Source: Malania oleifera (taxonomy: Eukaryota; Streptophyta; Magnoliopsida; Santalales; Ximeniaceae). Taken from it: 64,000 bases of DNA. Location of the stretch: assembly GCF_029873635.1 (NCBI RefSeq), contig NC_080417.1:32290214-32354213 (forward strand). The letters are read 5' to 3'. The notes beneath the pieces were generated by a model, which was not told the DNA's origin, made no database searches, and saw nothing but the letters and a program-made list of their open reading frames with translations. Positions 1 through 59,628 of the stretch are shown here, one piece after another; position 1 is the first letter of the stretch; every line of letters begins with the position of its first letter. A program made the position numbers and the translations under genes.

Positions 1-1163
1 GAAGCTTAGGCAAGTCTTCTTGGATAGGCTTATGAGCAAATCCCCCTAAGAGCACTTTAGGTTTATCTCTCGCTGAAAATCGATTCAATCACACAACAAT
101 GAGAGAGCAAACCTATTTGCACAAACACTTAAGACACTTATAGAGGATTTAGGAACTTGAGAAGGTAAGTTTGAGTGATTTTGAGTGAGAGTATGAGCAG
201 TAGAGAGTTTTTGGCTTTAGAGAGATTTTTTAATTTTTTTTGCTAATCATATTCCTAATTTTCCCTAATGAATGGGTATTTATAGACACCCCATGAATTA
301 TGACCGTTGGGGACAAGGCTGGTATTATTAGAAAAGATTAATGACATTTTAATTATTTTAACCCTATTAAAATTATTTAACCACGGTAAAAAATACAAGG
401 CAACCCGAGAGACCCGGTCGACTAGAAGACTTTCGATCAACCGAAGTTCATATGGCTTGGTCGACTAGGCCAATTTTGAACTTCAGAGTCAGTCGACCAG
501 GAAGGGCGATTTTTCCAAAATGGCGCGGTTCGGTCGACCAAGGTGAAAATGAACTATCTGGTTGGTCGACTAAACCATTGGGTTCCTACACAGGGGAACG
601 CAGTCGACCAGGTTGGTGTAGTTCAAAAAGGTTTCGGTGGACTAGGAAGTAAAACTGTTGACTTCAAGGTGTTTCGGTCGACCAGGGTCAAATGAACTGT
701 CATGGCTTAGTCGACCGAACTATGGTCAACCGGTTGACCCAGACCGGATTCGGTCAACCGGGGGCAGAATGAACTGCATGTGCCGGTCGACTAAAAGTGC
801 ATAGAGTGTGCATTTCGCTCCTGTTTAAATTACAATCACCCTATTCAAGTGCCTAACACATATAAGTGCAATGGTGAGCATCTTAGGTCTTTTCTAGGTC
901 CAGTTTTAGTTCTGAACTTACCTATTAGACCATGCACACGGGGTGTGTGATTATTACAAGTAAACATTATAATTTACTATTACAGGCCAATTACATGAAT
1001 GAATTATTTATTACAACCCAATGAGATATGGTCTTCAATCTTCACTTGCTTTACGTGCATCTTGATCTTGACGATTTAGGTTCTTGCACATAATCTCAAA
1101 TACCCATTAGATATCATGAGTATTTGTCATAATCAAAACTGGACGTGACCTATAAAGTCAACA
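1..1163 (-). mobile_element. SIRE/Maximus-like Copia LTR, partial (runs off left edge)
   Basis: The right end reads ...AAAGTCAACA at 1163, the same end as the other SIRE-like LTRs of this window, preceded by a shared stretch about viewing 'no data' conserved in the family (TATTTGTCATAATCAAAACT near 1112-1140). Orientation is minus: a minus-strand TATA box lies at 278-285 (TATTTATA on the plus strand), and a GTCGAC array lies upstream of it at 415-790. No polypurine tract follows position 1163, so this is either a solo LTR or a truncated copy. Its left end is outside the window. Fossil; the family call rests on resemblance to the LTRs at 11.3, 16.3, 19.2 and 32.1 kb. Confidence 0.7.
415..790. 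repeat. Array of GTCGAC-centred palindromes in LTR U3
   Basis: About a dozen copies of GGTCGACC/GGTCGACT-like words and decayed forms (GGTCAACC, GGTTGACC) occur at irregular 25-60 bp spacing. On the minus strand the array lies roughly 130 bp or more upstream of the LTR TATA box. Similar arrays sit in the same place in most other LTRs of this window. Confidence 0.8.
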
Positions 1164-1223
1164 CTTACACACACATATAAATAGACAAACACTTTCAAAT
1201 ATATCTACACATATGTATGTATA

Positions 1224-1263
<40 letters not shown>

Positions 1264-1735
1264 CACACACACACACACACACAAACACGTGCACCTGTGC
1301 ATACTTACATCCATACATACATGTCATGCATATTCATGCACATGCATCAATCCATGCATGCATAGATGCATCATCCATATTTCCATCCAAGCATGCATAC
1401 CTACATCATCATTTATGCATCCATGCCTTTATGCATTTATCCATGCATATGTGTATGCATGCATACACACATCACATGCATCATCCAACATTCATTTATA
1501 TACATACATACATATTTATGCATCCCATCTATGTATGCATACATACATATTTATGCATCCCATCTATGTATGCATATATGCATATGCATGCATACCCATT
1601 CACATATCCAACATTACATTCATTTATACATTCATACATCTAAGAATATGCATTCCTACATCCCCATCCATCATGCTCATATTCATCCATACACTCATAA
1701 AGTGGGACACGTGTCACCACCCGAAGGGTGATATG
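1164..1735. repeat. Simple-sequence tract: (TA)n, (CA)n and ATGC-rich repeats
   Basis: (TA)n at about 1228-1259 is followed by (CA)n at about 1264-1283, then by about 400 bp of CATGCATACAT-like words. One unit of about 50 bp (ATACATATTTATGCATCCCA) is present twice near 1505 and 1543. The overlapping open frames here, rich in His, Ile, Cys and Met, are products of the repeat. No gene. Confidence 0.85.
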
Positions 1736-2797
1736 TGACATGATTTGGGCCAAGCCTCACTTGAGAGACGTGGAGAGACTTGAATTGTTCGATCTATGTT
1801 TTCTCTAAACGGTCATATTTATACTATGTCAGCAATCTTACACATCTTCTTTGGGCCAACCGTTGGTTGACACATGGCAGGGTGACATTAGCTACACTAA
1901 TTCAAAAAAAAAAAAATAAATAAAATAAAATAAAATTCCTTGCCATGTGTCAACACTCGGGGTTGATATGTGGCCCCTACTTCCTAAATCGGTTGACCTG
2001 GTTTAGACCGGTCAAATTGGTTCATTTTTTTTTTAATTATTTTATTAATTTACTTTTTTAATTATTTTTTTGAAAAATGAAAAAAAAGGAAAATTTAGAA
2101 AAAACCAGGATAAATTGGGGGGAAAGTAGAAAATATTTTTTTGAGGGTAAAAAAAGTAGGAAAAAAAATGATTTTTGGCCTGTTTCAAGCCAAGAAAATA
2201 AGGAGCGGTCTTTAAATATACCAACTTTTTTTTAAAAAAAGTGAAAAAATTCTAAAAAATTTGTATAGAAAAATTGAAAAATCTAGGGATGATTTTTAAG
2301 ATTTTTTTGCTTATAATTTGGCATTTTCACTAGTTTTTGCTTGCGTGTGACCCTATGTTTTAAAAGAAGGACAATGAAGTATTTTAGACCTCACCTATAT
2401 TAACTTTGTGGGGAATTTATCTAACAAGATCCCCTAGTTTGGAGGTCTTATTAGACATTCCTAAATCTCATAGATATTTTTAATCTCCTTTTAATTTTGT
2501 TTATTTATTTAGTTATTTATTTATTTATCTGTTTATTTTAAAAAGAAGTTAATTAAAGGTTATTAAATTCAATTTGGGGATAAGTCATAATTAATTAGAT
2601 ATCGTTTGTTGAACGGGCGTGTATGGGTCCTGATACCTTCCTCTCGTACAACTAGAATCTTGATCCCAACTTTGGTAAAAGCAAACCAAGACTACTGGTT
2701 TCTTGGCTTAGGATTAGTCTAGTGACCAATCAAATGAGTAGTAGCGGGTGTTTTAACCGCACCAAGGAAAATAGGATAATGGCGACTCCAAATCAAA
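1736..2797 (+). mobile_element. Tat/Ogre-like Gypsy LTR end with primer-binding site
   Basis: The stretch at 2600-2779 (GGGCGTGTATGGGTCCTGAT ... TAACCGCACCAAGGAAAATA) is, from memory of the family, typical of the 3' end of Tat/Ogre-type Gypsy LTRs in plants. It is followed directly by TGGCGACTCC at 2780, which matches the usual primer-binding site of that lineage (tRNA-Arg type). Orientation is plus. The left boundary near 1736 is a guess, and no gag or pol follows, so this is a broken relic, perhaps with a short leader to about 2870. Confidence 0.55.
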
Positions 2798-3486: not shown

Positions 3487-3538
<52 letters not shown>

Positions 3539-3798
3539 GTGTATTATGACCTTCATATAGTGTGACATATATATGCATCAAAACCTCTTTCAACTTCCAA
3601 TGTCTCCCAATTTCTCAACTTTTACATGTAGTAAAATGCAAGGAACCCCCCAAAATTTCTATGAACTATGTTATTCTTCTCCTTTTTGGATTTTTGAAAA
3701 TTCAGATACTAAAATTGTGTTGCTATTGTTATATGGAGAATACATTACTAAAGAAAAGAGGTTTTAGGTTTGTATTTTTCATTTTATTTTGTGGTTTA
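2798..3798. other. No gene seen; AT-rich, with (AT)n
   Basis: About 1 kb without a supported gene. It holds an (AT)n run at about 3491-3535 and an A-rich stretch at 3080-3090 that could be the tail of an old LINE or SINE. The short open frames at 3562-3804 have no recognisable domain. Confidence 0.6.
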
Positions 3799-5395
3799 TG
3801 TTGACTTTTTGAGTCTGAGCCCTATTGTGATTATGACAAATAACATCATCTCACTTGTGTACTTAGTGAATACACAGATTTATAATTCTGTAAGTACAAG
3901 TGAAGGATGCAAAATGGAAGCCGTAAATGCACTTCAAGCTCGCACCAATCGGCATATTCTATGGGAATTAGGAGAGCAAGCTTGAAGACTTTATTTATTT
4001 TTGGGTTATAATAATTAATTAGATTTAATTGTGCATACATCTCATAATCAAATTTGAAACTCATACTTGACCTTATACTAACTTTAAGCACTCTATATTT
4101 CATGGAAAATCATTTAACAAATGTGCAAAAATTATTTCAAGTGCAAAAATCTTTTTTGAAATGAAAAACTCTAAAGCAAGCTTTTTAAAGACCCCTTCAT
4201 GTTTCTTTTGTCGCATTGATGAACACTTTTCTCTATCAATAACTATACTGTTTAAAACGTGTTCAATATGAAAGTTGTGAGATTTTCTCTTATCTATCTA
4301 TTGATCTCAAGTACGTTTAATTTAGAGTTGTATAGAAAACATTATGTTTAAAATATCAAAGGGTGTCCGCAGTAGAAAAATTCCCTTCATGTTTCTTTTG
4401 TCTCATTAATGAGCTATTTTTTTTATCTAAAACTCCTTATCTTAAAAAGTGTTCAACATGAAAGTTGTGATATTTTCTCTTAGCTTTCCGTTGATACCAA
4501 GAACATCTAATTTGGAGTTGTATGGAAAAGTTTATACCTAAAAATTGAAGGGTGTCTGTGCAGAAAGTGCCCCAATGGCCAGAAAATGCCTAGTTTTCAA
4601 GTTAATTCATATTTTTAATGCCCCAACGGCCATAAAACGGCTATATCTCCAATTTTCCTATAAATACAAAGTCTTTACACTTGGAGAAGACAAGGGAGAT
4701 ACTTGGAAAGTCTTGTTGAAAATTCTTTCATTCTTATTCATCTTTATACTCTCTTTGAAGATCAAAATCTATTTTTTCCTACTCTTTCTTTTTGAAAATA
4801 TTTTTTGGAAAATTCTTTTGAGTTATACAAGCAAGGCTTGAGCATATATTCTCTTTCATATATTTTACTTGAGATCCTTCTTGCTATTTGTTTTTTAAAG
4901 GTCAATCTTGAAGAAATATTCTTCTTCTACTCTTCATTTTGAAAAATCCTTTGGAAAAAATATTTTGAGTTTTACAAGGCATCTTTGAGCAAATCATTCC
5001 ACTCTCTCATTTTTACTTGAAAAATATATTTGAGAGAAATATCCTTACTCTACCAAGTTTCAAATTTTATAAATTATTTGAGAGTGCATTAAGGTTTTTA
5101 CATTGTACAACTCAGCTTATTGAGAAGCATTTCATTGTATGAAAAATTCATTCCTTATATCATTTGTATTTACTTTTCAGATTATGAACCGTGGTGAGGT
5201 AGCTACGCCTTGTGTTGAAGCAGTGGATTTTAAAGAGGTAGCTACACCTTGTGTAAGCAACGGATTGTAAATAGGTAGCTATGCCTTGTGTAAGTAGCAA
5301 ATTGTAAATGGAAGCTTCGCCCTAGTAACAAGCGGATTGTAATGGGAAGTTCCGTCTAGTTTACGTGAAAAACTCAAATATAGCTTTTCAAAAAC
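3799..5395 (+). mobile_element. SIRE-like Copia LTR, partial, plus orientation
   Basis: It starts TGTTGACTTTTTGAGTCTGA at 3799, the reverse complement of the right ends of the minus-oriented LTRs (for example 18750-18776). The homology to the 18.6-18.75 kb stretch continues through 3990. A TATA box (CCTATAAATACAAAG) lies near 4660. Just upstream, a unit of about 190 bp (TTCATGTTTCTTTTGTC...) occurs twice, at about 4195 and 4383. Downstream in R/U5, a unit of about 45-55 bp (GGTAGCTACGCCTTGTGT) is repeated about four times at 5195-5350. The family's usual right end with the G/C run and primer site is not present. Broken fossil. Confidence 0.7.
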
Positions 5396-5772
5396 ATTTT
5401 CAAAAGTTTTTCAAGTGCTGGTCTCTAAGTCTTTGTATCTTAAGGAGCTTCATATATCTAAATAGTAATGACTTGAAGTACTTACAAATATCCTTCTAAG
5501 CATGATCTCCCTAATCACTAAGTCTTCTAGCCTCTTGAGGTTCAGTATTTACTTCAAGACCTGCTTAACCTTTAAACTCTTTATTTTTCGTTCATTGCGT
5601 CAATATACTGAGAAGCTTTCACTTGATTGACTTTGATTTCCAGCTTACTTCCATGATTGACCACGAGTGTCTTTTTACTTAGACTTGAAATAAAGCCACT
5701 CAACAACACAAGTTAAAACATCCTTCATTTGTTATCATCAAAATAAGATTGAAAAGCCCTGTTAGACCAACA
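5396..5772 (-). mobile_element. LTR end fragment resembling the 61.4 kb LTR family
   Basis: The right end ATTTGTTATCATCAAAATAA ... GTTAGACCAACA (to 5772) resembles the reverse complement of the LTR start at 61421 (TGTTGGCCCTATAAGGCTTA). Left limit is unclear. Short fossil fragment. Confidence 0.5.
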
Positions 5773-7239
5773 TGTACAACTGATTTACTGCATTGTTGAT
5801 AATGAAATCATATAATTAAAAAGTTTATGCATGTAACCATAGGTTATATGGGTGTATATATAAATTATAAATATGTTAGCATGGTTCCCTCGAATTCGCA
5901 AATTTTTTTTTTATGTGTCCATTAGGTCATTTTTGTGCATGAAATAATGTCGTGCAATGTACTATCCCCTACTTCCAACTTAGAACTTCAGTGTTGAAAA
6001 AAAATAGGATCCAATCAAGGGATAAGATAGTGCACGGTGTCAGCAAGAGCAAACAGTGCCTTGCAAAATATAAGAACCAAAATGACATGTAAGCAAGAAG
6101 ATACTATAGCACAAAAGACAGATACTAGTTAACCGCACCATGGTCATTTCATTCATATTCCAATCTATACAATATAGTGCAAGCATTCAAAACATAGTGG
6201 ACTCATGCAAGAGCAAAAAAAAAATGACCCAATGCCGAACAGGCATATTATAAGACCCAAAAGTTGTATTGATATTAGTCGAAGTTAGAGTCAGAATCCG
6301 AGTGAGATGAAATCATCAGCGGTTTGGCCAATGCTGCATCCTGAGTAGGTGTTGTTGCCCACAGATACTGAAGCCGGTGGGACGAGAGTGGAGGTCGAGG
6401 CTGCTGTGGGTGAAGAGCCTAGAGTGGTCTCGGTTGGTTAAGCATTGTTCATAGCGGGAGGGATTGATATGACTAAAAGGGGTATGGTAATGGTTGCGGG
6501 TCAAACCTGGGAACCAGAGGCGTCATGATGGGACGATCAAGAACCTCTGACGGTGGGATATATGGCATGGTTGGCTGGAAGTGGTGAAATGGAAGGGGGT
6601 AGGGAAACCAAACCTCATGAAGATCAATGGAGGTCTGGTCAACGAATGGTGGTGTTACTCCTCACAGTGAACTCTCTGGTCGTGGGGCTGACCCTCGTCG
6701 TGGTGTCATATGTAGACACCTATGAGGAGCCCAAACTAGGTGCATAACCTCCTCCTGGAACTCGAGACCCTACTAGCCTCGCGATGAAGACCCTCGCTAT
6801 GGCATGGCTAGAAGTCGTCGCCTCTTGGCAGCGGGCTGAGACAACGCATTAGAGGATGTCGAAGATGAATCAGATGGAGATGACATCACTACAGATTGCT
6901 TCAGTAGCACGTGTGAGAAGGGGGCGACTATGCTAGCCCAAGTTATGATGAGAAGGTGGGCGATGCAGAGTCGGGGTCGACCAAAATTTAAATGACTTCT
7001 CAATGTTTCTCAACCTGGTCGCACCATGTTCAGTGCTAGACGTGGACTTGGTCGACCCTCTCAGTATCTCCCAATCTAATAGCAGTGTAGGGATTCAACC
7101 AGGTTGCCCTTATACGTGATGGTTGTTGTGCTTTGTCGCACTCCCAGATTACCCCAAATCCTACGTAACAAACACTCAACCAACTTTACCTACTCTAAAC
7201 ATTCTATGGACTAAATAAAAGATGAAAAACTATCGGGTT
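5773..7239. other. Unassigned stretch; possible decayed coding sequence on the minus strand
   Basis: No gene is supported. On the minus strand one frame from about 6570 down to 6276 reads as Pro- and Gln-rich residues ending in SHSDSDSNFD and a stop, but it is interrupted by several in-frame stops. A short minus frame at 6797-7003 contains a basic patch, AAKRRR. Neither was recognised. This stretch may be the downstream part of the Gypsy relic that follows, or a separate dead gene. Confidence 0.35.
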
Positions 7240-8169: not shown

Positions 8170-9876
8170 TTTCTAAAATATAGAGGGTGCGAGTGGTGTT
8201 GCTGGATGTGTCACAGAGAAGCTATGAAAAGCTCTATGGGGGGCGAAGTGAGCTGTGGTTCTTATGGTGGTGGGTGTGAGACTCAATGGTCTATGTACCC
8301 GACTAGATGAAGAGAGAGTGCATGAATCTGCGTTGGGTACTTCCAATTTTTTATCTTGGGTCTCCCCCGTACTCGGCTGCTCTTTACCTTGTTTAGGTGT
8401 CAATCTGCCATTTTGAGATGTGGTTACCGCCTGAGCTTGCTTAGAGTATGAGGAGGGTCCAGAATCCGGTTCACATTCTACCCCATATGGTCCCTTTGGA
8501 TTCATGATGGGTTGTCTTGGTAACTTACCCTCATGCCTTCGACTTAAAGTAGTGGCTAGCTATCTCATGGTGGTTTTTAGCTTTCCAATGGATTGGAAGT
8601 GGGAGTGAAGGAGTTGCCTATCCACTTGACGTTCAGCTTCAATTCGCTTAAGGGATGTCAACACCGTCTCTTGGAATGAATCATATTTGAATTGAGGTGG
8701 AGGTGGATGTTGAATGGTTAAAGGTCTAGGGGCTGAGTCTGGATGGTTTTGAAAATTTTGATATGGGCGTGGAGCCAAAACATTAGTGTTTTGTTAAGGT
8801 CTTTGGCTTTGAAAACCCGGAGCTTGCGGCCTCTAGGAGAACTTAGGATGTTGTTTCCACCTAAGATTGTATGTATTTGAATAAGGGTCATTAGACAGCT
8901 TATCGTACCAATTTTGAGTGACCTTTACTTCCTCCTACAAAACCTCAAGTTGGGAATGCGTGTGAGGGCAATTATAACATGTATGGGTAGGGTCGGAGCA
9001 GATTGCACAAACCTCTGCACACGCTGTTGTCTGCAGTCCTAAGGACAGGCATTGATCTAACATTTTATATATGCCATGCAAGGTCGGGGCTAGGTCTTGG
9101 CCAGTGGCCAACTCATAAACTCCTTTTGGTTTGGAATTTGATTAATTAGGTAGTCTACGAGTGACAGTCATGTGCTGCTGAGAATTTTCCGCCTGATTTT
9201 CGAAGAGAATCCAGGCCTCATTCTCGTGCTTAATAAGGAAAGTACCTCCACACGATCCATCAACCATAGACCTATATCTCTTAGCCAATCCTTCGTAGAA
9301 AGTTTGGACTAATTGCCACTTGGGGACCTGGTGATGTGGGAATTTACAGTGCAAGTCCCTAAAGCACTCGCAAGTCTTGAAAAAGAGTTCCCCATCCATT
9401 TGTGAGAAACTTGTGATGGCTCTCCGAAGCTGATTAGTCTTCCCAATTGGGAAGTACTTTTTAAGAAATTCATGTTGCATGGTGGCCCATTTGGTCACCG
9501 AGTTCGGTTCTAAGGACGTCAGCCAATATTTGGCTTTATCCTTCAGAGAGAACAGGAAAAGCTTAAGACAGAGAGCATTATCACTGAAATTAGGGATGCG
9601 GATGGTGGAACAGATTTCCAAGAACTCATTCAAATGCTGATAAGTATTTTCAATGGAAATCCCATGAAAGTTTGGTAGCATCAAGATGATTGAAGTCTTA
9701 AACTCAAATTGGGCGGCCCCAACATCTAAGGACCGGATGCAGGATGGCGATGTGTATGCAGTAGGTATAAAGTAGTCCCTAAGAGGGCGTAGGTGTTGCT
9801 CTCTCACCACAGGTAGGTGAGGAGCATGGGGTTCCAGGATTTATTCAGTGGTAACCGGCGGGTTATTTTTGTCCAT
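8170..9876 (-). pseudogene. Gypsy gag remnant (Retrotrans_gag type)
   Basis: The longest open part (about 9142-9810) contains the gag core typical of Athila-group Gypsy elements: a stretch ending in LFLFSLKDKAKYWL, then EFLKKYFP and LVQTFYEGL, which are conserved in Retrotrans_gag domains. Further toward the 3' side, Pro/Gln-rich residues (about 8560-8778) and a charged stretch (8173-8505) fit the gag tail. The probable original start is MDKNNPPVTTE near 9876, just inside the primer-binding site. The fossil gag belongs to the relic at 7.2-10.8 kb and is broken. Confidence 0.8.
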
Positions 9877-11256: not shown

Positions 11257-12849
11257 TGTCGAATCAGGTGTAATCCCAAGAGGGGGGGGGTGAATTGGGC
11301 ATTTAAAAATTCTTTGAAACTTATTTTCCACTTAATTCCTACTTCTATATTTACCAATGAGTTCTCATTACTCAATTAATTATGTGCAACGCTATCCAAC
11401 CTATACATGCGAACATTTTGAAAATCTAGGAATTTAAACTCAATAAAATATTTGTGCTATAAATAATTTTTCCCAAAATATTTATCAAATGAATAATCGG
11501 GAGAAATACAAGCAATACTCTCAAAAAATGAGTTCTAGAACATAAAGAACAAGTGAGAATATGTGCAAGTAAAATGCCCTAAATAAAATACTCTCAAAAA
11601 TGATTTTGAAGTAAAAGCATGGAAGAGATTTGGATAAAAAAATTTTCCCTAAAAGAATGATTTTAACTATAAAACTTGGTTGGGGGAACTTTGATTAACA
11701 AAGGTTTAGAGAGAATTTTAGAGTTAATCAAAGTTACTAATCTGAGGTCATGAGGGAGCATTTATAGAGTTTCAGAAAATTTTGACCTTTGGGGACACGC
11801 ATGGTATTTTTGAATTTGTTTTATTAAAATTTAAGCGTGTTTAAACAATAAATATTAATCCAACACAAGAGGTTTAGTCGACCAAGGGTAAGGGCTGGTC
11901 GACCACTTTTATAAATTCGGTTGACTGAGACAAATTTGCATTACAGGTTTTGTCGATCATATCAGGGTGTTTCTAAACCCTTCGTGGGTTCAGTTGACCA
12001 AGGCTAGAGGCTAGTTGACCATTCATGAGGTTTGGTCGACCAAGGCCAATTTGAACTGAAAGGTTTGGTCGACCAAGTAGTTGGGGTGTCAGAGGTTCAT
12101 GGTTCGGTCGACCAAGCAAAGTCAACATGTTGACTTTTGACGGTTTGGTCGACCAAGGCATTTATAATACCAAGGGTATGGTCAACTGAAGCTTTGACTT
12201 TGGTCAACTTCTTAATTTGGTCAAACAAGGTCAAATGACCTTGCGATGGTTGGTCGACCGAGGCAAGTGAAATTCCCACTTTGCCCCTGATTTTGAGCTT
12301 AACGAAATTTCCCCTTAAATGTATGAGTATGATTTTTAAGTGAGGGATTTTTCCATTAAATATATTGTGTCCTAAGGTCAGCTATGGTCCTTGTCCAGAT
12401 CCCTATGCTCAAGGCTTTTAAATTAAGCGAAAAAATCCAAGGTCGACCGAAGCTCCATTTTTTCCCCAGTTTTAACCCTAAATTCATTTTTGAAAACCCT
12501 GTATGATTTTAGTATGTTAGAAAAAGGTTTTCAGTGCAAAATGTTGGTCCTTAGGGTCTATCTATGGTCTTTCTAAGCTTATTAATCACATCATGCATGC
12601 AATGCATTATTATAGACCAAGTAATGAACTAAATGCAATGCAATACAATTAAATGTCTTCTTCTTGATCTTTTGCTTTTCACTTCATGAAGTATGCCAGG
12701 TTTATGTGCATTAAGATCCGTCTTTGCCTCCATTCCCCTTATTCCTTATGTGTGTGCCGAAATATGAACATGTTCACAAACTAAGTACACACATAAGATA
12801 CAGATGCTTTGTCAGCATTAAAATAGGGATCAGACTCAAAAAGTCAATA
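11257..12849 (-). mobile_element. 3' LTR of the 11.3-21.5 kb element
   Basis: It starts TGTCGAATCAGGTGTAATCC, with a run of G at 11281, and ends CTCAAAAAGTCAATA. A minus-strand TATA box lies at about 11759-11766 and a GTCGAC array at 11875-12265. Much of it aligns to 19985-21481 in the partner LTR. Confidence 0.75.
11875..12265. repeat. GTCGAC palindrome array in LTR U3
   Basis: About nine or ten copies of TGGTCGACCAAGG-like words, with variants GGTTGACTGAG and GGTCAACT, begin about 110 bp upstream (minus strand) of the LTR TATA box. The same array, with different decay, is in the partner LTR at 20470-20905. Confidence 0.85.
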
Positions 12850-15800: not shown

Positions 15801-16254
15801 TAAGTTTAGAATTATATGATATATATAATACTATGATAACTTCCCTAAACCTCAATCTGTGTGATGGACAAAATATGTTGTTATTCAATAATTTTAAACT
15901 TTAAGCATATACATAACACTTAGAATCTTTTAACAATTAAAACATTTGTCCATTCGAAGGGGATAGCCAATATCTTCATATATTAACCAATCATAATCAT
16001 ATGTGTATATTAAGCTTAGATTGAATATATCAACTAAGAGTTTCATATTAGCTTGCTTTCATAAAGTTTTTAGTATAACAATAGTGTGTTCTAAAATTTA
16101 AAGCACTATTTAATCATTTAAAGCATTTTGACCCCTTATATATTTTATCCTAAAATCTTATGAGTATATAAAATTTATTTGAAATGTGCCTCATAAGATA
16201 TCATGCTATTATCAAAACAAATTTTATCATGATTCATACAAAATTGACACAAAA
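12850..16254 (-). other. Conserved non-coding interior of a non-autonomous element
   Basis: About 3.4 kb with no supported gene, AT-rich with scattered CTCCCCCTT words (12850, 13172 and 15658). From about 15700 to 16250 it is collinear with 36060-36570 in the other element: shared words include ATGATGGACAAAATATG-like (15861 and 36201), CCAATCATAAT and AGTATAACAAT. Open frames here are short and unrecognised. Confidence 0.7.
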
Positions 16255-16674
16255 TGTTGGAATTGGTGTGATCCCAAGAGGGGGGGGGGGTGAATTGGGT
16301 TTTAAAAACTTTTTGGCTAATTTAAACAATTCGTCGATTCATTACAGTATCATATCCCATTCAACATGTATACGTGTATGTAAAACGAGTTTAACAATAA
16401 AAGCAAACATACACATGTGCAGTATCTTATTTAAATCAAATGTGTGCATGAGAACAATTTCGACATTAAATAAACATTCATACACATGCTGAAATTAAAG
16501 TGTAGGAATTTAAATAAAATAGAAAGAGCGACACAAGATTTGTTATCGAGGTTCGGCCAAACCAGCCTACATCCCCGCCTTGGGCTTACCCCCAAGGATT
16601 CCACTATACTTGCTCACTTAACCGGGCGGAGCAAAAGCCTTTTACAACCTCTCCTTACGGGGCGAGGAAAACCC

Positions 16675-16865
16675 CAGCTCAATTACTAGGCTGAGCCAAA
16701 CTAGTCTCACTTGCGGGGCTGAGACTCCGCAGTTCAATTCCGGGCTGAACCGAACCGGTCTCACTTGCGGGGCTGAGACTCCCCAGTTCAATTCCGGGCT
16801 GAACCGAACCGGTCTCACTTGCGGGGCTAAGACTCCCCAGTTCAATTAACGGGCTGAACCGAACC
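16675..16865. repeat. Tandem repeat of about 60 bp in LTR R/U5
   Basis: Three to four units contain GGGCTGAGACTCC, CAGTTCAATT and GGGCTGAACCGAACCGGTC. The minus frames translate into a repeated peptide, but this is repeat sequence and not a gene. Related arrays are at 19660-19800 and 32490-32660 in other LTRs. Confidence 0.85.
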
Positions 16866-17825: not shown

Positions 17826-17985
17826 GGTCGGTCGACTAGGCACAAGGTACGGTCTACCGGGGCTTAAAATGAATGAGTTTTGGTCGACCTTAGTGAAGGC
17901 TCGGTTGACCAGGCTCAAGGTACGTTCGACCGGGGCTGAAATCAACGAGTTTCGGTCGACCGTAGTGAAGGCTCGGTCGACCGGC
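17826..17985. repeat. GTCGAC palindrome array in the solo LTR
   Basis: Copies of GGTCGACT/GGTCGACC and GGTTGACC lie about 95 bp upstream (minus strand) of the TATA box at 17726-17733. Two near-identical subunits (TTTTGGTCGACCTTAGTGAA and TTTCGGTCGACCGTAGTGAA) show recent local duplication. Confidence 0.85.
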
Positions 17986-19235: not shown

Positions 19236-19237
19236 AT

Positions 19238-21481
19238 TTTTGGAATTGGTGTGATCCCAAGGGGGGGATAAATTGGATATTTAAAAAATTTTCGGCTAAT
19301 TAAAATATTTCGATTCACCTTTGTTCATATCTCATTCAATATTAAAAACATGTATGTAAAATGATTGAACTATCAGTGCAGACATACAGGTGTGCAACAT
19401 ATCTCATTTAAATTAAATCTTTGCATGCAAATAATTACAGCAGTGAACAAGCAAGCATACACATATGGAAATTAAAGTGCAATAATTAAATGAGATAGGT
19501 AGAGAGAGTCACACACGATATTTGTTATCTAAGTTCGGGCAAACCAGCCTACGTCCCCACCTTGGGCATACCCCCCAAGGATTACACTATCCCTACTCAC
19601 TTAAATGGGCGGAGCAGAAGCCATTACGACCTCTCCTTATAGGACGACGTAAACCCCAGATCAATTACTAGGCTGAGTCCAACTGGTCTCCCTTAAGGGG
19701 TAGAGTCATCTTGGTTCAATTTTCGAGCTGCATCGAACCGGTCTAACTTACGAGGCTGAGACTCTCCAGTTCAATTTAAAGGATGAACCCAACCGATCCA
19801 TTAAAAACATTTTGTACATATAAAATGCTTGTAAAAATACAACAAGAGATGTACATGTTAAAGCTCAAGTACATACACTCTAATATGATGCGCAATTTGT
19901 TGAGTAGAGTACAAGTGCTTATCTAACAATTTATGTACAAATGAAATATATGAAAATATGAGTATTATGTTCTCCTATAAATATTTTTGTAAATAAGGAA
20001 CATTTGGAGAATCTAGGAATTTAAACTCAATAAAATATTTGTGCTGTAAATAATTTATCCCAAAATATTTATCAAATAAATAACCAGAAGAAATGCAAGC
20101 AATACTCTCAAAAAATGAGTTCTAGAACATAAAGAACAAGTGAGAGTATGTGCAAGGCAAATGCCCTACATAAAATACTCTTCTCAAAAATGATTTTGAA
20201 GTAAATGCATGGAAGAGATTTGGAGAGGTATGGATACAAAAATTTGCCCCAAAAGAATGATTTTAACTATAAAAATTGGTTTGGGGAACTTTGATTAACA
20301 AATGTTTAGAGAGAATTTTAGAGTTAATCAAAGTTACTAATCTAAGGTTATGAGGGGGTATTTATAGAGTTTCAGAATATTTTGACTGTTGGGGACACAC
20401 TTGGTATTTTTGAATTTGTTTAATTTAAATTTAAGCGTGTTTAGGTGCTAAAAATTAACCTAACCCGAGAGATTTGGTCAACCAAGGGTAAGGGCCGATC
20501 GACCACTTTTATAAGTTTAGTTGACCGAGGAAAATGTGCACTATAGGTTTGGTCCACCATATCAGGGTGTTTCTAAATCCTTCATGGGTTCGATCGACCA
20601 TGGCTAGAGGCCAGTTAACCATTCATGAGGCTCGTTCGACCAAGGCCAATTTGAACTACAATGTTTGGTCGACCAAGTAGTTGGGGTGTCAGACGTTCAT
20701 GGTTCGGTTGACCTAGGACGATACGATCAAAACAAAACAGTCAACCGAGGCGAAGTCAACATGTTGACTTCTAATCGTTCGTCGACCAAGGCATTTATAA
20801 TGCCAAAGGTACGATCGACCGAAGCTTTGACTTTGGTCAACTTCTTAGGTTGGTCGACCAAGGTCAAATGACCTTGCGATGGTTGGTCGACCGAGGCCAG
20901 TAAAATTCCTATTTTGTCCCTAATTTTAACTATACAAAATTTTTCCTTAAATGTATGAGTATGGTTTTTAAGTGAGGGATTTTTCCATTAAATATTTTGG
21001 GTCCTAAGGTCTGCTATGGTCCTCGTCAGGTTCCCTATTGTCAAGGCTTTTGAATTAAGCCAAAAAATCTAAGGTCTACCGAAGTCTTATTTTTGCCCCA
21101 GTTTTAACCCTAAATTCATTTTGAAAACCTTGTATGATTTTAGCATTTTAGAAAATGGTTTTCAATTCAAAATGTTGGTCCCTAGGGTCTGTCTATTGTC
21201 ATCTTGGAGCTTATCAATCACATTATGCATACAATGCATTATTACAGACCAAATAATAAACTAAATGCAATGCAATACAACTAAATATCTTCTTCGTGAT
21301 CTTTTGTTCTTCACTTTATAGAGTATGCCAGGTTTATGTGCATTAAGATCCATCTTGGCCTCCATTTCCCTTAATCCTTATGTGTGTGTTGAAATATGAA
21401 CCTTTTCACAAACTAAGTACACGCATAATATACATATGCTTTGTTCACATCAAAATAAGGATCAGACTCAAAAAATTAACA
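19238..21481 (-). mobile_element. 5' LTR of the 11.3-21.5 kb element
   Basis: It starts near 19238 (TTGGAATTGGTGTGATCCCA) and ends ACTCAAAAAATTAACA. A minus-strand TATA box lies at 20359-20366 and a GTCGAC array at 20470-20905. R/U5 repeats related to those of the nested solo LTR lie at 19660-19800. Confidence 0.75.
20470..20905. repeat. GTCGAC palindrome array in LTR U3
   Basis: Copies of GGTCGACCAAG, GATCGACC and GGTCAACCAAG lie upstream (minus strand) of the TATA box. Compared with the partner LTR, several sites differ just at the central CG (for example AGTCGACC at 11876 against GGTCAACC at about 20475). Confidence 0.85.
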
Positions 21482-33028: not shown

Positions 33029-34722
33029 TGTTGGGAGTCCAAGCCCGGAGTATATAGTCTAGAGGGGGGTGAATAGAATATTTTTGCGGAATACGTATTT
33101 TTCTACAAAATAAAAACTCTTGGCAAGTTACAAGAAATTATATCGCAATATAAATATAAATCATGCACAAGATATAAAATAAAGAGAGCAAAGGAGAGAA
33201 AGAACAACACCGGTATTTTTACGTGGTTCGGCACCAAGCCTACATCCAAGCCTTAACACCAAGCCAAGGATTCCAAAATCCACTAAAGATACTCTTTCAC
33301 CGGTGGAGAAGCCTTACAACTCGAGAACAAATCCCTACACTTAGGAAGAAACCCCTACTGTGCTCACCATGAGCCTTCGCTTCGGTTCACAAAGAACCTT
33401 ACAACAATGGTTCACAAAGAACCTTACAAGAGATTGGAAATACAATTTAATGCTCCTTAAATGGGCCAATATGAAACACAACCAAATTCTCACTCTATTC
33501 TCTCAAGGAATGAATCTTACATGATAAGTGAGCAAGAGAGGATTGAGCACTTGTGAAGAAAAACTAAAATGCAAAGTGCAAAGTGCTTAGGTTTTGGATA
33601 AAATGATATTTTTAACAAATATGATTAACAATGCTCAAAACCATATTAGTACAAGTCTAAAAGCTTGTATTTATAGCCCAAGAACCTTAGGAGGCGTTAA
33701 CTAGCCGTTGGGGGGGAGAAAAAATATTTTATTTTACAAACTAGCCGTTTTCCGCCCGTTGAATTCGTCGACGAAATTCTCTAAATTTCATCGATGAGAT
33801 CCCTGAATCAGAAAAAGTCACCAAAATGAAAGTTGTGGAATTTTGTCTAAGCTTTCCAGGGACACTAAGATCATCCCACTTAAACTTTTCTAGAAAACTT
33901 TATGCCCAAAATACCATAAGGTATTCAGGACTCAAGACTGCACTACGGCAGTGACGATTACTTTGTTTTTCCTTGTCAAAAAGTATTTTAATGACTCAAA
34001 ACATTCTTGGAAAAAATTATATGAAATATATTAAGTCTAATGAAGATTAAAACTTGTCCAAATGAGTTTACTTTTGAATATAAGATATTTTAATTAATAA
34101 AACACGTTTGAAAACCCATTTTGATATCTTATATGCTTAGTATGTCCTTTTGTAAAAATACTTGACTTTATTTGAACCTTTAGAACATTAAACTTGTTTT
34201 AATACAATCGGGACTAAGTATAAAAATGTTCTTAAAACTAGGATGTTATAAACTTGTTCCTTTGAAAACATATTTGAGTTTTAGGATTCATTTGACAAAC
34301 TCTTATTTTAACTTAGAAAGCCATGAAAGGTAAGTTTGTGTTTACGTCTTTAGTGCAATCCTATAAACTCATATGTCCTAGTATGCTTATGCAATGGCTC
34401 AACTCTTACTCAAAAAATCATGCAAGACACACACCGCAAGAGTTATAATACGCACTCACTCACACAACCCTTATTATAATTAATTTATACACAATAAAAA
34501 CTCCGGGATGTGCTTTGGTGCTTCTGAGTCAATGTCCTTCCGATCTTTTCTATTTGATGTCTACTAGGTTCGATCTTTTCTTCTAATTTGGTACCTTTAT
34601 GTATCTGACACTATGTACCTATACTAGATAAGATCTGCAAGGATAGAAAATACTAGAAACAACAACTAGGTTAATATCATCAAAACATATAAGCCAAGAT
34701 AGTGTAGCTGACAGGGCTAACA
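33029..34722 (-). mobile_element. 3' LTR of the 33.0-39.3 kb element
   Basis: It starts TGTTGGGAGTCCAAGCCCGG and ends TAGCTGACAGGGCTAACA. A minus TATA box lies at 33668-33675; about 90 bp upstream of it is TCGTCGACGA (33765-33774) and then TTTCATCGATGAG. The segment at 33800-33960 is the stretch around AATGAAAGTTGTGG that is shared with the other SIRE-like LTRs. Confidence 0.9.
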
Positions 34723-38888: not shown

Positions 38889-38890
38889 CT

Positions 38891-39814: not shown

Positions 39815-40130
39815 GTTCGATTGACTGACTAGTAGGGCCAATCGATTGACCCTTAGGCGATTTCAAAATTCGTGATAGTTAGTCAGCTGAGCAAAAGCGT
39901 CGGTTGACTGAGTGAATAGTGTCGATCAACTAAGCCATTTACATTTTAAGGGGGTTAGTCTACCAAGCTTATTGGAATTACAAAATTGACCTTAAGCATT
40001 CGTCGGTCGATTGACCATGATACAACTATAGGGAGGTCGGTCAATTGAGCTTATATGAAAATATCATTTTTGCTTTTAAGGACATGTTGGTTGACTGAGC
40101 TTGACTGGCCGGTCGATTGACCTCAGCAAA
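39815..40130. repeat. Decayed GTCGAC array in LTR U3
   Basis: Words such as GGTTCGATTGACTGAC, CGGTTGACTGAG, CGGTCGATTGACC and GGTCAATTGAGC replace the intact palindrome seen elsewhere; intact GTCGAC is absent. It lies about 110 bp upstream (minus strand) of the TATA box. Confidence 0.75.
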
Positions 40131-46299: not shown

Positions 46300-46790
46300 T
46301 GTTGTGAAAATTGAATGCACAGCTGAATAAAAAAGATCTTACAACGTAGCAACCAACAGTGAAAAATACAAAACAATAATCACACTGATTATAATAAAAG
46401 CAATAACAATGACACAAAGAATTACGTGGTTCGACAATGTCTGCATCCACGGGAGCAATCGACAACGTAATTTTCACTCTCTTGTGTCCAAAGACTTGAA
46501 CAGTACATAGTTACAACATAAATCATGTATATATAAGTTTCCCAAAGGCTTTCCCTCTAAAACCCAACCTGTCCAATGTCTTAATTCAAAATTTGAAAAA
46601 AAATAACACTAAGTAACCAAGCCAAACCGTCGACAGTTTGCAGAGATATCATTGACGATTAAATACTGAGAGCAAACCATCGATGTAACAGGTTCAAAAC
46701 CATCGACTGTTACACCGCACTTGGACCAAACCATCAATGGTTTCCTCCTGCAAGTCAGCATTTTTGTTTTCTTCATGTTTTCTCTTTGTA
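46300..46790 (-). mobile_element. 5' LTR of the 43.7-46.3 kb Copia relic
   Basis: It starts TGTTGTGAAAATTGAATGCA next to the primer site; the probable end is TTGTACA near 46790. A minus TATA box lies at about 46527-46535, and GTCGAC-type words at 46627-46745 (ACCGTCGACAGTTT, ACCATCGATG, ACCATCGACTGTT). It contains GCAGACATTGTCGAACCACG (reverse strand), shared with the LTR at 47.8-48.5 kb. Confidence 0.7.
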
Positions 46791-49413: not shown

Positions 49414-50085
49414 TTGCATAAAAAGAAAGAAAAACATAAAAATATACAAAACAAAAATTTTTAATATTAATTTTTTCGATGTTTCAACTTTAGATCGCTT
49501 AATGTATGATGTACAAGTCTCATAAAGTCAAACCAATAGGATGCCCTTAAGGAACATTTTGAATAATTTTTATATTTACTAATTTGATATATATTTTTTC
49601 ACATAATTTGGATTAATATTATTAATATAATCCTATTATTTTATTATTTTATAATTTTAGTAGGGTGCGTACTCATATTTTTAATCTAAATATTTTGTAA
49701 TTTCATATATAATGTATTATTCTTTAAATTTTCATGGGGGCACTTGCTCTTACTAGGCCTAACCTAAACCGATTTATTAGCATCAAATGTATGAGATGAT
49801 CTACCATTTGACCCGTGTTTTACACCTATTAGAGAAATTATATCAGAAATCTATCTCTCTATATTATAAATATAAATATCACTGTCATTTTTTTCATATT
49901 TAAAAATAGATATATAAACAATATGGAGAGACATACACGACTGTTTTATAATTTCTCCATTTAACCATATTAATAATTATCCTATTGATGACAAATTATA
50001 ATAATATAATAAAAATAATACACAACAACCCAACACCAAACTGGTTGCTTCTTCTCATCTCCTACATCACCAAGTTTAAGAACCC

Positions 50086-50086
<1 letters not shown>
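49414..50086. other. Upstream region of the hydrolase gene; no gene seen
   Basis: AT-rich, with no repeat family recognised. It presumably holds the promoter; several TATA-like words are present, so no specific promoter can be assigned. Confidence 0.5.

Positions 50087-50116
<30 letters not shown>
50087..50116. repeat. Poly-C run of 30 in the 5' leader of the hydrolase gene
   Basis: Thirty uninterrupted C residues end 43 bp before the start codon, preceded by AAGAACCCA and followed by AAAGTTC. The opposite strand is G30. The run may be longer or shorter in reality because such homopolymers are hard to sequence. Confidence 0.9.
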
Positions 50117-50118
<2 letters not shown>

Positions 50119-50142
50119 AGTTCTCATTCATTTCCTGGACCA

Positions 50143-50160
50143 GAGAGAGAGAGAGAGAGA
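50143..50160. repeat. (GA)n tract abutting the start codon
   Basis: GAGAGAGAGAGAGAGAGA runs directly into ATGG of the hydrolase start. GA tracts are common in plant 5' leaders and core promoters. Confidence 0.85.
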
Positions 50161-53076
50161 TGGTGAACCTAGTAGCAGCACAGAAGCCATTGTTGCATGG
50201 GCTAATGAAGATGGCCGGAGTGAGACCCCACTCCGTGGAGATCGAGCCCGGCACCGACATGAACTTCTGGGTGCCTTCTAAAACTATCGTTCATCCTAAT
50301 AACACCACCACCACCACCCGCCCCCCAAACAAGCCTGTCGTGGTGCTCGTGCACGGCTTCGCTGCTGAGGGCATCGTAACGTGGCAGTTCCAGGTGGGGG
50401 CTCTGACGGGGAAATACGCGGTGTACGTGCCGGACCTGTTGTTCTTCGGGGGGTCGACCAGTGTGACGGCGGAGCGATCGCCGGAGTACCAGGCGGACTG
50501 CCTGGCGAAGGGGCTGAGGAAGCTGGGGGTGGAGAAGTGCACGGTGGTGGGATTCAGCTACGGGGGGATGGTGGCCTTCAAGATGGCGGAGCGCTACCCG
50601 GAGTTGGTGGGGGCCATGGTGGTGTCCGGTTCGGTGCTGGCCATGACCGACTCCATCAGCGGCTCCACCCTCCAGAGGCTGGGTTTCTCTTCCTCCTCCG
50701 AGCTGTTACTGCCCAACTCCGTGAAGGGTCTCAAAGCTCTCCTCTCTGTCGCTGCTCACAAGAAGCTCTGGTTCCCGGACTGTCTCCACAGGGACTATCT
50801 CCAGGTTTAATTCATTCATTAATTTGCATATCCCTCAGCTCGTTAATTATAATTTTTTAATCATCACATAATTTTTAATTAACTATTTCGTTTTTTTTTT
50901 AAAAAATCTATCTAGTTTGATCTTCTATTTTGTTTTTTTTTTTTTATGTTAATTTAATTTTTTTTTTTTAATTATAAAGAAGAAAAAGTCCATGTTGTAC
51001 ACGCATGCAGAAAGTCCACAGGAACTAACATTTTCAGTCACACCTTTAATGCTTCCTTCCAAAATCAAAACCTAGAAGATGAATACACGTACACTTACAT
51101 ACATATACAAATTCACTAGCAATATCCATCATGAGTGTGATATATAACCTTCTTGATATTGGCATTGCGTGCAAAAATTAACTTATTTTGGATTTGAGGA
51201 TCAATATAGAAGATAATAATGGTAAATTATTTTTAAAAAAATTTTATTTCTGTGCTTGATCTGTCTTGACAAAGAAAGTAAAAATAAATATTTTCATAAT
51301 AAAACTTAAAAATAGCTATTCCACATTTATTTCATAATATATATATATATATAAAATATAAATTCATATTCTCGTTATTAAAATAGACATATTCATCCCG
51401 AACTAAATAGACTAAAAATGTTACACATCTTCTCCTTAGTATCAAGATATTGAGTGGATGGGAGGAGGCCTAGAATATTAGAGTCAACTTTGAGCTTATC
51501 AAAATGAGCGAATAGAATAAATATTAAATATATATGGGGTATTAGGTGGCTAACACCTACGGCCACTAATTAGGGCTACACCCAGCGGATGCCTATTGGA
51601 TGGCTGCCTCAACCAATATGACCTAAAATCGCAATAGCAACAGCTACTTAACATTTATGTAAAAATATTTTTTAAAAAAATATTAAATTAAATAAATACA
51701 TAATATATAGATACTTATTTTTATTATATGATTATTTTCAAATATATTTTAAATTAAAATTATTAATATTTTTAATTAATATATTTTAATTAAAAATAGA
51801 ATAAAATATTGATATTTATTTATAACATATTACTATCATATTAGATTATGATAAAAATAATGTTATTAATTAAATTTAAAATTTAATTTATTTAATATTT
51901 GATTTAGATTAATAAATAATTCTTGTTCAATTGAGAATTGAATTATAATTACTAATATGTATTTTTAAGTATATTTTCAATAAAAATATTAATTTTAATA
52001 ATTTATATTTTAAATAATAACCATATTAATTTTTTAATTAAACTTTTAAAAATATTTCCCATTAACTAAAATAATATGATATTATTTCCTAATTAACAAT
52101 AATCTTGTTATTAATATATATTTATAATATATGATTATCACATTACTTTATATTAAAATAGTATTAATAATTCAATTAAAAATTTTAATTTATTTAATAT
52201 TAATTTAAATTTATAAGATGATTTTTTTATTCATGTAAATTTCAACAATAGATAGTTTTAAATTATATTAATTTAAATTTAAATGTATATGAATTTTTTT
52301 TAAAATACCACATAAAATTATATTAAATTTTATCCAAATCTAAATCCATTACCCAAAATCGATGCCTCCAAACTCAAAATAATTATCTTTCAAATACGCA
52401 GTACAAAAATCCATACCCCCAACCCCACCTGAGTGAGAGACCATCCTCCTCCCCCTTACCATCACACAGTACTATAACCAGAACACAATTTTATTGTGGA
52501 CATTGACGAATGTGCAAGAACAAAAACAGGTGATGTTCACAAACAGAAAGGAAAGAAGTGAACTCCTGGAGGCCTTGGTCATCAGCAACAAGGATTCCAG
52601 CATCCCCTGCTTCCCACAGGTAAAGTATTACCTCAGCATTCTGCAGTCAATGCCCACCTAAAGCTTCTTCTCTCCACAATTTTTCCCTCCCTGCCTGAAA
52701 GTTCTTATCGGTTTTAAATAGTTTATTTATTTTTTCAGAGAATACACCTCTTGTGGGGTGAAAACGATCAGATATTTAAGCAGGAACTTGCCCACAACAT
52801 GAAAGAGTATGTCTACTCTTTACATATCAATGCTTGGTCCAAAATGAGTCCCCAAATGTAGGTTATAGTCATAGTTCATACATAATGATAAGATTTTTCT
52901 CTTCTTTTGTTCTTTTTTTTTTTTTTTGTGATGACAGGCAACTAGGAGACAATGCAACGTTTGAAGGGATAAAGAAAGCAGGTCACCTGGTGCACTTGGA
53001 ACGCCCCTGTGTCTACAACAGATGTCTCAAGCGGTTCCTTGCCTCTCTGCACACTGACACAGCCCAAAAATTATGA
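50160..53076 (+). CDS. Alpha/beta-fold hydrolase, four exons, 313 aa
   Basis: Exons are 50160-50804, 52530-52619, 52739-52806 and 52938-53076. All three introns have GT-AG ends and the frame stays open through every junction to TGA at 53074-53076. The product is a plant alpha/beta hydrolase of the AB_hydrolase_1 type. VVVLVHGF (residues 60-67) carries the oxyanion-hole HG; VVGFSYGGM (129-137) is the nucleophile elbow with Ser133; WGENDQIF (251-258) supplies the likely acid Asp255; KKAGHLVHLERP (280-291) holds the likely catalytic His284. The triad therefore comes from exons 1, 3 and 4, in the usual order. The N-terminus MVNLVAAQKPLLHGLMKMAG and EPGTDMNFWVP match, from memory, a plant-specific subfamily often annotated as epoxide-hydrolase-like; the substrate is unknown. 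There is no signal peptide. Exon 1 is much more GC-rich than its AT-rich surroundings. It looks intact and is probably expressed. Confidence 0.93.
50805..52529 (+). other. Intron 1 of the hydrolase gene
   Basis: A 1.7-kb intron, very AT-rich (especially 51650-52330), with a GTTTAATT donor and CAAAAACAG acceptor. A short GC-rich patch at about 51550-51640 (CACCTACGGCCACTAATTAG) may be an old insertion. No other gene inside. Confidence 0.85.
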
Positions 53077-58000: not shown

Positions 58001-58129
58001 CTTGAAGGAGAAGAACCTACACAAACAAGAGAAGTAGTTATTGAGTCACAAGTTCCCAAGCTGCAGACACCTCCACATGGTTCACCATAGAGGGTTGAAG
58101 CTCAATCACCAATTGAGCATGAAATCTCA

Positions 58130-59303
58130 AATATGAGACCTAGAGGAGCTCGAAATCTAGCTGACCTGTATGAAACTACAAAACCAATAGAAGAGTATGT
58201 TACTTTATATTGTCTGTTGTTGACTAGAGACCCGGTTAGCTTTGAGGAAGCTAACAAAGAATACAAATGGAGAAAAATGATGGATGAGGAGATTCAATCC
58301 ATCGAGAAGAACAATTCTAGGGAGTTGACAAATCTCCCGAAGGGCCATAAAACTATTGGTGTGAAATAGGTCTACAAGACCAAGAAGAATGCTCAAGGAG
58401 AAGTTCAGAGATACAAAGCAAGACTTGTCACCAAAGGTTACAAGCAGAAAGAAGGGATTGATTATGGAGAAATATTTGCCTCGGTTTCTAGGCTTGAAAC
58501 CATCAGATTACTAATTTCACTATCAGGACAAAATGGATGGAAGATTCACCAGCTAAACGTGAAATCAACATTTATGAACGGTTTTCTAGAAGAAGAGATC
58601 TATATCGATCAACCCACCTAGATATGTGAAGAAGAGAAAAAAAGATAGAGTGTACAAACTGAAGAAAGCACTCTATGGCTTGAAGTAGGCACCTCGTGCA
58701 TAGAACTTGAGGATTGATGACTACTTCTAGAAGAATGGATTTGAGAAGTGTCCCTACGAGCATGCGCTATACATGAAGATGGAGACAGACGGAAGCATGC
58801 TGATAGCCTGCCTATATGTTGATGATCTGATCTTCACCGGCAACAATCCAGAGATGTTTGCTGCTTTTAAGAGGAACATGGTAAAAGAATTCAAAATGAT
58901 GGATATTGGCCAAATGACTCATTTTCTTGGCATAGAAGTCGTGCAAAGCGAGAAGGGAATCTTCATCTCCTAGAGCCACTATGCAAAAGAAGTACTGAAG
59001 AAGTTTGGGATGGACAAATACAACTCTGTGACAACTCCGGTTGAAATGGGATTGGAATTGAGAAAGAATGAGGAAGGAGATGTTGACCCCACATATTTCA
59101 AGAGTCTAGTTGGAAGTTTGAGGTATTTGACGTGCACTAGACCAGACATACTCTATGGAGTTGGACTTGTCAACAGGTACATAAAGACTCCTGACCAGTC
59201 CCACCTAAATCCAGCGAAGAGGATACTCCGCTATGTCAAGGGTACCATCACTGATGGTATGTTCTATTCATCAAGAAGTGATTGCAAACTTATCGGCTAT
59301 TTA
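58130..59303 (+). pseudogene. Copia reverse transcriptase and N-terminal RNase H remnant
   Basis: KKALYGLK-type region near 58660-58690, then CLYVDDLIFTGN (catalytic YVDD) near 58810, MMDIGQMTHFLGIEV, and TTPVEMGLELRKNEEGD, SLRYLTCTRPDILYGV and AKRILRYVKGT leading to RNase H. The coding stretch is cut at CKLIGY by the solo LTR at 59304 and resumes beyond it at 61330 with SDSDWGRD. Fossil. Confidence 0.88.
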
Positions 59304-59393
59304 TGTAACAACCCAAAGAATAATGATATTTAAATAATATAGAGGGAGAAAAATGGAAACGGTAACAGAAGGAGGCAGCTGATTTCGTTGACA

Positions 59394-59628
59394 AAGGCTT
59401 CACATTCGTCAATGACATTACATTTTGGAGATGATAATTCCAAGAAATTTTCCAGGCCTCGTCGACGAACACAGGGGTTTCGTCGACGAGGGTTCTTCAG
59501 GATCTCATCGATGAGAAGATATCGAGAGAGGATTTTTGGAAGTTTGAAATTCATCGACGAGGGTGCAAATTCATCGATAAACTTTCTACAGGACTCGTCG
59601 ATGAGGTGGCGTGTCTCATCGACGAATC
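59394..59628. repeat. TCGTCGACGA palindrome array next to the TATA box
   Basis: About ten words such as CGTCGACGAACACA, TTTCGTCGACGAGGG, CATCGACGAGGG, CTCGTCGATGAGG and TCATCGACGAATCC occur. The last lies only about 5-10 bp upstream of the TATA box, closer than in the other LTRs. Confidence 0.88.

Follow-up and report, generated by a model that had tools for sequence, protein, structure and literature searches.

Long terminal repeats (LTRs) of several retrotransposons in a 64-kb stretch of the Malania oleifera genome (contig NC_080417.1, here C1, positions 32,290,214 to 32,354,213; the window) carry arrays of up to about twelve CpG-centred palindrome copies per LTR, which have the core GTCGAC in common and lie on the upstream side of the TATA box. 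Since the words were kept while the intervening DNA changed, they would most likely be docking sites that switch the elements on, and we give a probability of about 0.68 to the reading that they form upstream activator arrays of the U3 (unique 3') region, bound by a host protein and possibly of the C-repeat/dehydration-responsive element (CRT/DRE; CBF/DREB) type. Most of this observation is of a known kind; what is new is its extension to Ty3/gypsy-linked and short-LTR families, which share the centre and have different flanks, together with the direct constraint on the sites.

GTCGAC excess and position relative to the TATA box

We explored GTCGAC abundance in the window, in a sample of 20 arbitrarily chosen 10-kb loci from the same genome (200 kb) and in the whole genome (1.494 Gb, 510 contigs). 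With expectations derived from dinucleotide content, GTCGAC had the highest ratio among the 64 palindromic hexamers both in the window (35 sites against 2.6 expected) and in the sample (94 against 10.0). Genome-wide it occurs 492,939 times, against 165,896 occurrences of the same word read backwards, which served as the control for all genome-wide counts; the sample expectation scaled to the genome would give about 75,000. The first 100 sites on contig C1 occupy 371 kb, with 71 of them having a neighbour within 130 bp. The genome holds at least three GTCGAC-centred word classes, namely class A (GGTCGACC, 128,541 copies against 6,493 reversed), class B (TCGTCGACGA, 132,361 against 1,383) and class C (AACYGTCGACRGTT, 4,641 against 12). 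When the window, the 20 sampled loci and 10 anchored loci were pooled (294 kb) and pure A/T words excluded, the top three 10-base palindromes were TCGTCGACGA, CGGTCGACCG and TGGTCGACCA, all with GTCGAC at the centre.

A preliminary description of the window had listed eight LTRs with such arrays upstream of the TATA box. These arrays are given below with one LTR that has none; TATA positions were assigned by us from the sequence.

415..793, minus strand: class A array with nine exact GTCGAC and decayed copies, in LTR 1-1163, which is truncated by the window start; TATA near 277-284
11875..12449, minus strand: class A array with eight exact GTCGAC, in LTR 11257-12849, the 3' LTR of element 11257-21481; TATA near 11761
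17829..17983, minus strand: class A array built of tandem units of about 72 bp, with four exact GTCGAC and variants, in LTR 16255-18776; TATA at 17726
20475..20893, minus strand: class A array with four exact GTCGAC (20668-20886) and variants, in LTR 19238-21481, the 5' LTR of element 11257-21481; TATA at 20359
33765..33797, minus strand: class B pair, TCGTCGACGA (33765) and TCATCGATGA (33788), in LTR 33029-34722, which belongs to a Sirevirus-type element; TATA at 33668
39901..40119, minus strand: decayed class A array with zero exact GTCGAC, in LTR 32093-40520, split by the nested element 33029-39330; TATA at 39702
46620..46712, minus strand: class C array, ACCGTCGACAGT (46626) and variants, in the short LTR 46300-46790; TATA-like sequence near 46540
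59385..59625, plus strand: class B array with two exact TCGTCGACGA and seven CpG-transition variants, in LTR 59304-61329; TATA at 59635
3795..4720, plus strand: counter-example, 5' part of an LTR without array, related to LTR 16255-18776, which has one; TATA at 4658

LTR 59304-61329 is read on the plus strand and the other seven listed LTRs on the minus strand. The eight arrays are real, but the split LTR (pieces 32093-33028 and 39331-40520) has only decayed variants, and LTRs 11257-12849 and 19238-21481 are the pair belonging to one element and are thus not independent. LTRs 33029-34722 and 46300-46790 have a single exact GTCGAC each, accompanied by TCATCGATGA in the former and by variants in the latter.

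The upstream position was confirmed without exception for exact sites in the listed LTRs. These make up 21.7% of the window, yet hold 29 of its 35 exact GTCGAC, every one of them on the upstream side of the TATA box (the remaining six are at 6976, 7051, 10674, 46081, 48147 and 50453), and all 26 of the 60 one-transition variants GTTGAC and GTCAAC that fall inside them are upstream as well. In contrast, the 15 other NNCGNN palindromes have 15 of 64 sites in the listed LTRs, six upstream (five of them ATCGAT) and nine downstream of the TATA box. The gap to the TATA box had been described as mostly 90-130 bp, and about 10 bp in the last LTR. It is about 89-133 bp in five LTRs and about 10 bp in LTR 59304-61329, counted there from the end of the final class B copy, which is a variant; the description does not fit the split LTR, whose variants start about 190 bp from the TATA box, nor the exact sites of LTR 19238-21481, the nearest of which lies about 300 bp away, the nearer copies all being decayed (the first at about 108 bp).

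An annotation-free profile of the window and the 20 loci bore out the proposed enrichment over other CpG palindromes near TATA. Within 500 bp of 93 TATAAATA motifs, GTCGAC lay upstream 48 times and downstream 5 times, against 56 and 57 for the 15 control palindromes; the corresponding counts were 25 and 3 against 40 and 39 in the 20 sampled loci alone, and 46 and 4 against 55 and 41 when each site was assigned once to the nearest TATA motif. Among the controls, ATCGAT, which itself arises when the class B word decays, lay upstream 12 times and downstream 3 times, and the remaining 14 palindromes 44 and 54 times. A further count used the first 21 listed primer-binding sites minus one that overlapped its neighbour. 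Around these 20 there were 31 GTCGAC in 50.0 kb upstream and 1 in 10.0 kb downstream, against 52 and 13 sites for 16 control palindromes. Class A clusters with a strict TATA motif showed a gap of about 96-154 bp in five of six, and of about 300 bp from the exact sites in LTR 19238-21481. The gap was 17-49 bp in five sampled class B clusters, two of which (L016 and L035) belong to the gypsy-linked class B family described below, the other three being L015, L019 and L021; in that gypsy-linked family it was about 10-33 bp in the three LTRs in which both array and TATA box were readable.

Retroelements carrying the arrays

The consulted sections of Bousios et al. (2010, PMC2829016) describe Sirevirus RM boxes with the Vitis consensus CGGTCGACCG, present in 8 to 32 copies per element, clustered mostly in the upper LTR half and forming CpG islands, the TATA box following 37 bp after the island on average; the boxes are called Sirevirus-specific, classic copia elements being devoid of them, and all of the 13 except one show a CGG-CCG signature. 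This consensus and class A are the same word: each of six aligned LTRs holds 6-12 near-exact copies of the GGTCGACC core, in the upper LTR and upstream of the TATA box, and the class A arrays are CpG-dense as the published islands are (observed/expected CpG ratio 0.72-1.25 and GC content 0.45-0.54 in six class A arrays, four of which reach 50% GC). Class A is therefore the published Sirevirus RM box, and this part of the observation was already known. Unlike the RM box, classes B (TCGTCGACGA) and C (AACYGTCGACRGTT) lack CGG-CCG and occur also in gypsy-linked and short-LTR families; in the class B arrays of the 59304-61329 family we found neither a copia Sirevirus carrier nor the CGG-CCG signature. 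The class B word is present also in one Sirevirus-type element here, 33029-39330.

Three of the eight listed LTRs sit on two elements with Sirevirus hallmarks. Element 11257-21481 has AGGGGGAG in multiple copies on the minus strand (12852, 13178, 14524 and 15659), as Sireviruses do, the first of them 10 bp before the LTR provided that the LTR starts with TATTGACTTTTTG; its junction AATTGGTATCGGAGC has one primer-binding-site mismatch relative to the Sirevirus ATTGG+TATCAGAGC, runs of seven and nine C close to its LTR ends agree with the Sirevirus polyC feature, and the single internal fragment tested, 14992-15240, gave no coding domain. Element 33029-39330, nested within the older LTR 32093-40520, has five AGGGGGAG polypurine-tract copies at 34895-35171, within 0.5 kb of the LTR, the 5' junction AGTGGTATCAGAGC and C6-C7 runs near the LTR ends, all in line with Sireviruses; its terminal tract, AGGGGGGAG, is longer by one G, and a copia gag (Retrotran_gag_2) lies at 38293-38607. 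Three more LTRs may be placed in the Sirevirus group, more weakly: 16255-18776 and 32093/40520 by partial similarity to the Sirevirus-type LTRs, with a C run near the 16255 end, and 1-1163 by its class A array and a U3 similar to that of L047, a locus where the CA-ATTGG-TATCAGAGC junction is exact and a C9 run lies 35 bp ahead of it.

The class C carrier 46300-46790 (LTR of about 490 bp) is probably a short-LTR copia element: RVT_2 (2.9e-4) and gag_pre-integrs (3.1e-5) matches were found in its element, both below curated cut-offs, and AGGGGGAG was not found on the minus strand between 35171 and 52449, the span around this LTR. LTR 59304-61329 matches L037 over 1.6 kb, the sequence past the primer-binding sites of L037 and L030 matches L012, and four of the six L012 fragments tested hold RVP_2, RVT_1, RT_RNaseH and SH3_Tf2-1, which make up the Ty3/gypsy set. 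The family thus appears to be Ty3/gypsy, linked stepwise through L037, L030 and L012 because the array region of L012 lies outside the analysed piece.

The preliminary description had suggested repeated recruitment of one kind of site, and had named as its contrary that all eight LTRs belong to a single family which inherited the array once. The latter is not borne out, as gypsy-linked class B and short-LTR class C arrays stand beside the Sirevirus-type LTRs, with different flanks and spacing, so that one inherited array is insufficient. Repeated recruitment is thus partly supported, by classes B and C, but up to six of the eight LTRs are Sirevirus-type and, since the consulted sections of PMC2829016 describe the boxes as a feature of that lineage, most of the list represents one clade. 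Our searches of the open-licence literature brought up neither class B arrays in Ty3/gypsy LTRs nor class C, and among the matches listed there none was by its title about plant LTR arrays with TCGTCGACGA or CGTCGACG; the consulted parts of PMC11656987 and PMC6911290 report no such arrays.

A junction of two arrays was observed in locus L006 (1502-2200, minus strand), where a gypsy-type LTR start with a class B array, ended at its TATA, adjoins a Sirevirus-type class A array that leads to further TATA-like sequence; a chimeric U3 could explain this, as could an insertion that is nested or truncated.

Conservation of sites relative to spacers

We compared sites with spacers in six aligned class A and five aligned class B U3 regions (five further class B candidates, of ten, were dropped because their LTR start was not recognised); the comparisons are pairwise and non-independent, and therefore no P value is given. 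In ungapped class A comparisons the core T/A columns were identical in 522 of 522 cases, against 6611 of 9502 spacer columns, the central CpG was kept in 204 of 261 cases, against 187 of 353 other CpGs, and 257 of 261 8-mers were kept when transitions were allowed. Non-CpG columns of class B sites were identical in 532 of 532 cases (spacer 1768/2639), and, with CpG transitions allowed, 116 of 133 class B sites were preserved, whereas the same rule preserved 231 of 1164 spacer 10-mers. The statement that LTR families share only the GTCGAC centre is true of different classes; members of one class keep the flanks as well, as the class A 8-mers show.

Since the aligner could favour repeated words, the alignments were redone on the spacers only, with sites masked (gapped site pairs, 13 of 270 in class A and 5 of 92 in class B, were dropped). 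Class A site columns were then identical in 456 of 514 cases against 5401 of 7979 spacer columns, with CpGs kept in 174/257 against 55/182; for class B the values were 340/348 against 1156/1764, and 56/87 against 12/32 for CpGs. Among the 399 sites of 41 local alignments, each with four or more exact sites, 247 were intact; the intact share was 27% for other 6-mers and 23% for CpG 6-mers. That sites are better kept than spacers, also under masking, argues against neutral repeats, and position together with sequence constraint supports the earlier suggestion of a promoter or enhancer site.

Single CpG decays in class B numbered 25 at the two outer CpGs and 7 at the centre, too few to interpret. 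The idea of a methylated W-box (TTGAC within GTTGAC variants) was dropped, as CpG decay alone yields such variants.

Proposed function and alternatives

If the arrays are activator arrays, a host DNA-binding protein would bind the copies, probably as a dimer or on two overlapping half-sites, and would activate transcription from the TATA box; lineages keeping many good copies would transpose more and, after insertion, the copies would decay through CpG transitions. For Sirevirus-type elements this mechanism would be the known RM-box system, while in the gypsy-linked and short-LTR families unrelated elements may have come to rely on one and the same factor, or on related ones that have a GTC/GAC half-site in common. 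Because GTCGAC is catalogued in PLACE as CRTDREHVCBF2, the core CRT/DRE motif (with CBFHV as RYCGAC; consulted part of PMC9138379), and this core hexamer is identical to ours, our guess for the factor is an AP2-type CBF/DREB protein. Unlike the CRT/DRE, GTCGAC is here set in longer class-specific palindromes and arrayed, and CBF/DREB binding is a prediction. A purifying signal on promoter words, readable from sequence alone, would offer a way to seek the factor that a transposon requires.

Several observations weigh against this activator reading. Upstream GTCGAC was found in only 8 of the 20 loci anchored on primer-binding sites, with two or more sites in 6, and these 6 belong to 2 of 13 homology groups, so that the arrays are not general. 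A strict TATA motif lies within 400 bp downstream in 12 of 25 site clusters and none lies downstream in 13, although three of the latter (L001, L023 and L025) show CTATATATA in the U3 alignment; 3 of the 25 clusters also have a strict TATA motif on the wrong side. The LTR from 3795 to about 5800, missed by the preliminary description and related to LTR 16255-18776, has a TATA box and no array; as it keeps the surroundings, the array looks like a gained or lost module. Masking the sites lowers class A conservation from 100% to 89%, and the comparisons behind these values lack independence. In several pairs of the local alignments, exact class B hexamers are no better kept than other 6-mers (0/8 in L016/L035, 0/6 in L015/L021), often being without excess because the three CpGs of each word decay, and the class B excess is visible only once CpG transitions are allowed. 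Finally, the consulted sections of PMC2829016 report no common single-factor binding site for the Sirevirus boxes.

A wider version, in which Sirevirus copia, Ty3/gypsy and short-LTR copia elements each built GTCGAC arrays in U3 that differ in flanks, spacing and TATA distance, converging on one host factor or factor family, with hundreds of thousands of excess cores and competition among the elements, is tentative, and we would bet against it rather than for it. The same six central bases in three classes could have arisen by chance or by exchange between LTRs, and L006, with its class B U3 adjoining a class A array, indicates that such junctions between LTRs occur. If one factor did serve several groups, a large part of retrotransposon transcription in this genome could be under the control of a single protein, and hundreds of thousands of binding sites would act strongly on both that protein and neighbouring genes. 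We suggest that the published Sirevirus-specificity of such boxes be tested in Ty3/gypsy elements.

An RNA-level function or liability, by which palindrome copies would pair in transcripts running through the 3' U3 and the hairpins would serve the element or feed silencing by host small interfering RNAs, an idea put forward for maize Sireviruses, seems to us unlikely. Six arrays, folded as RNA, lie far below 60 dinucleotide shuffles each (z of -9.6, -6.7, -3.1 and -5.1 in class A, -3.4 and -6.0 in class B), whereas five neighbouring stretches do not (-1.4, -2.0, -0.5, 1.6 and -2.1). Small RNAs map in excess to maize Sirevirus palindrome clusters (consulted part of PMC10760457, citing Bousios 2016), which resemble the present arrays in their Sirevirus location and strong predicted structure and differ from them in the word, CACCGGACNNNGTCCGGTG in maize. 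However, any palindrome array would fold strongly, and pairing needs no particular word near one TATA box. Compensation between positions -1 and +1 was not detected either, the double change AGTCGACT occurring 5 times in 66 against 4.6 expected under independence, in a test that is weak because each copy can pair with many others.

Even less probable, and already disfavoured, is neutral tandem duplication, in which functionless short repeats would have grown in ancestral LTRs. It would account for the regular class-specific spacings (peaks at 32-34, 38-43 and 71-75 bp in class A and at 19-24, 44-46 and 65-68 bp in class B, measured on the first 100 listed occurrences of each word), for the tandem units of LTR 16255-18776 and for the clean absence of an array from the 3795 LTR. 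Class A also has a polarity in the LTR sense, as head-to-tail duplication would give: among 50 exact sites, 20 have T ahead of the core and G behind it, 3 have the mirror arrangement (C before, A after), 18 have C ahead, 34 have G behind, and 13 carry the full CGG-CCG on both sides. Neutral growth is opposed by the contrast between spacers (about 66-70% identity) and non-CpG site columns (89-100%), and by the recurrence of the TATA-upstream position across different LTR families. Helical phasing of the distances was tried as well (best periods, among those tried, about 10.5 bp for A and 11 bp for B) and was not used, the distances being family-inherited and not independent.

The poorest candidate is a CpG-methylation platform, with dense CpG targets kept for host- or element-directed methylation without a sequence-specific activator: nine arrays do have a CpG observed/expected ratio of 0.72-1.73 against 0.31-0.47 in five neighbouring LTR stretches (1.04 in array 415..793 against 0.35 in 1-400), and CpG-transition forms are the commonest among the variants counted, but methylation alone would leave unexplained that non-CpG site columns are kept above spacers, and the 15 other CpG palindromes as a group lack an upstream bias.

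Further features were observed in the window. LTRs 3795-5800 and 16255-18776 both carry an imperfect direct repeat with a spacing of 190 bp (4193/4383 and 18003/18193). A Retrotrans_gag match at 9145-9840 (E 1.6e-16) marks a fragment of a further retrotransposon, and about 180 bp at 28235-28414 align with their own reverse complement at 79% identity. An open reading frame at 50019-50807 with an alpha/beta hydrolase match (Abhydrolase_1, E 4.4e-18) is probably part of a host gene.

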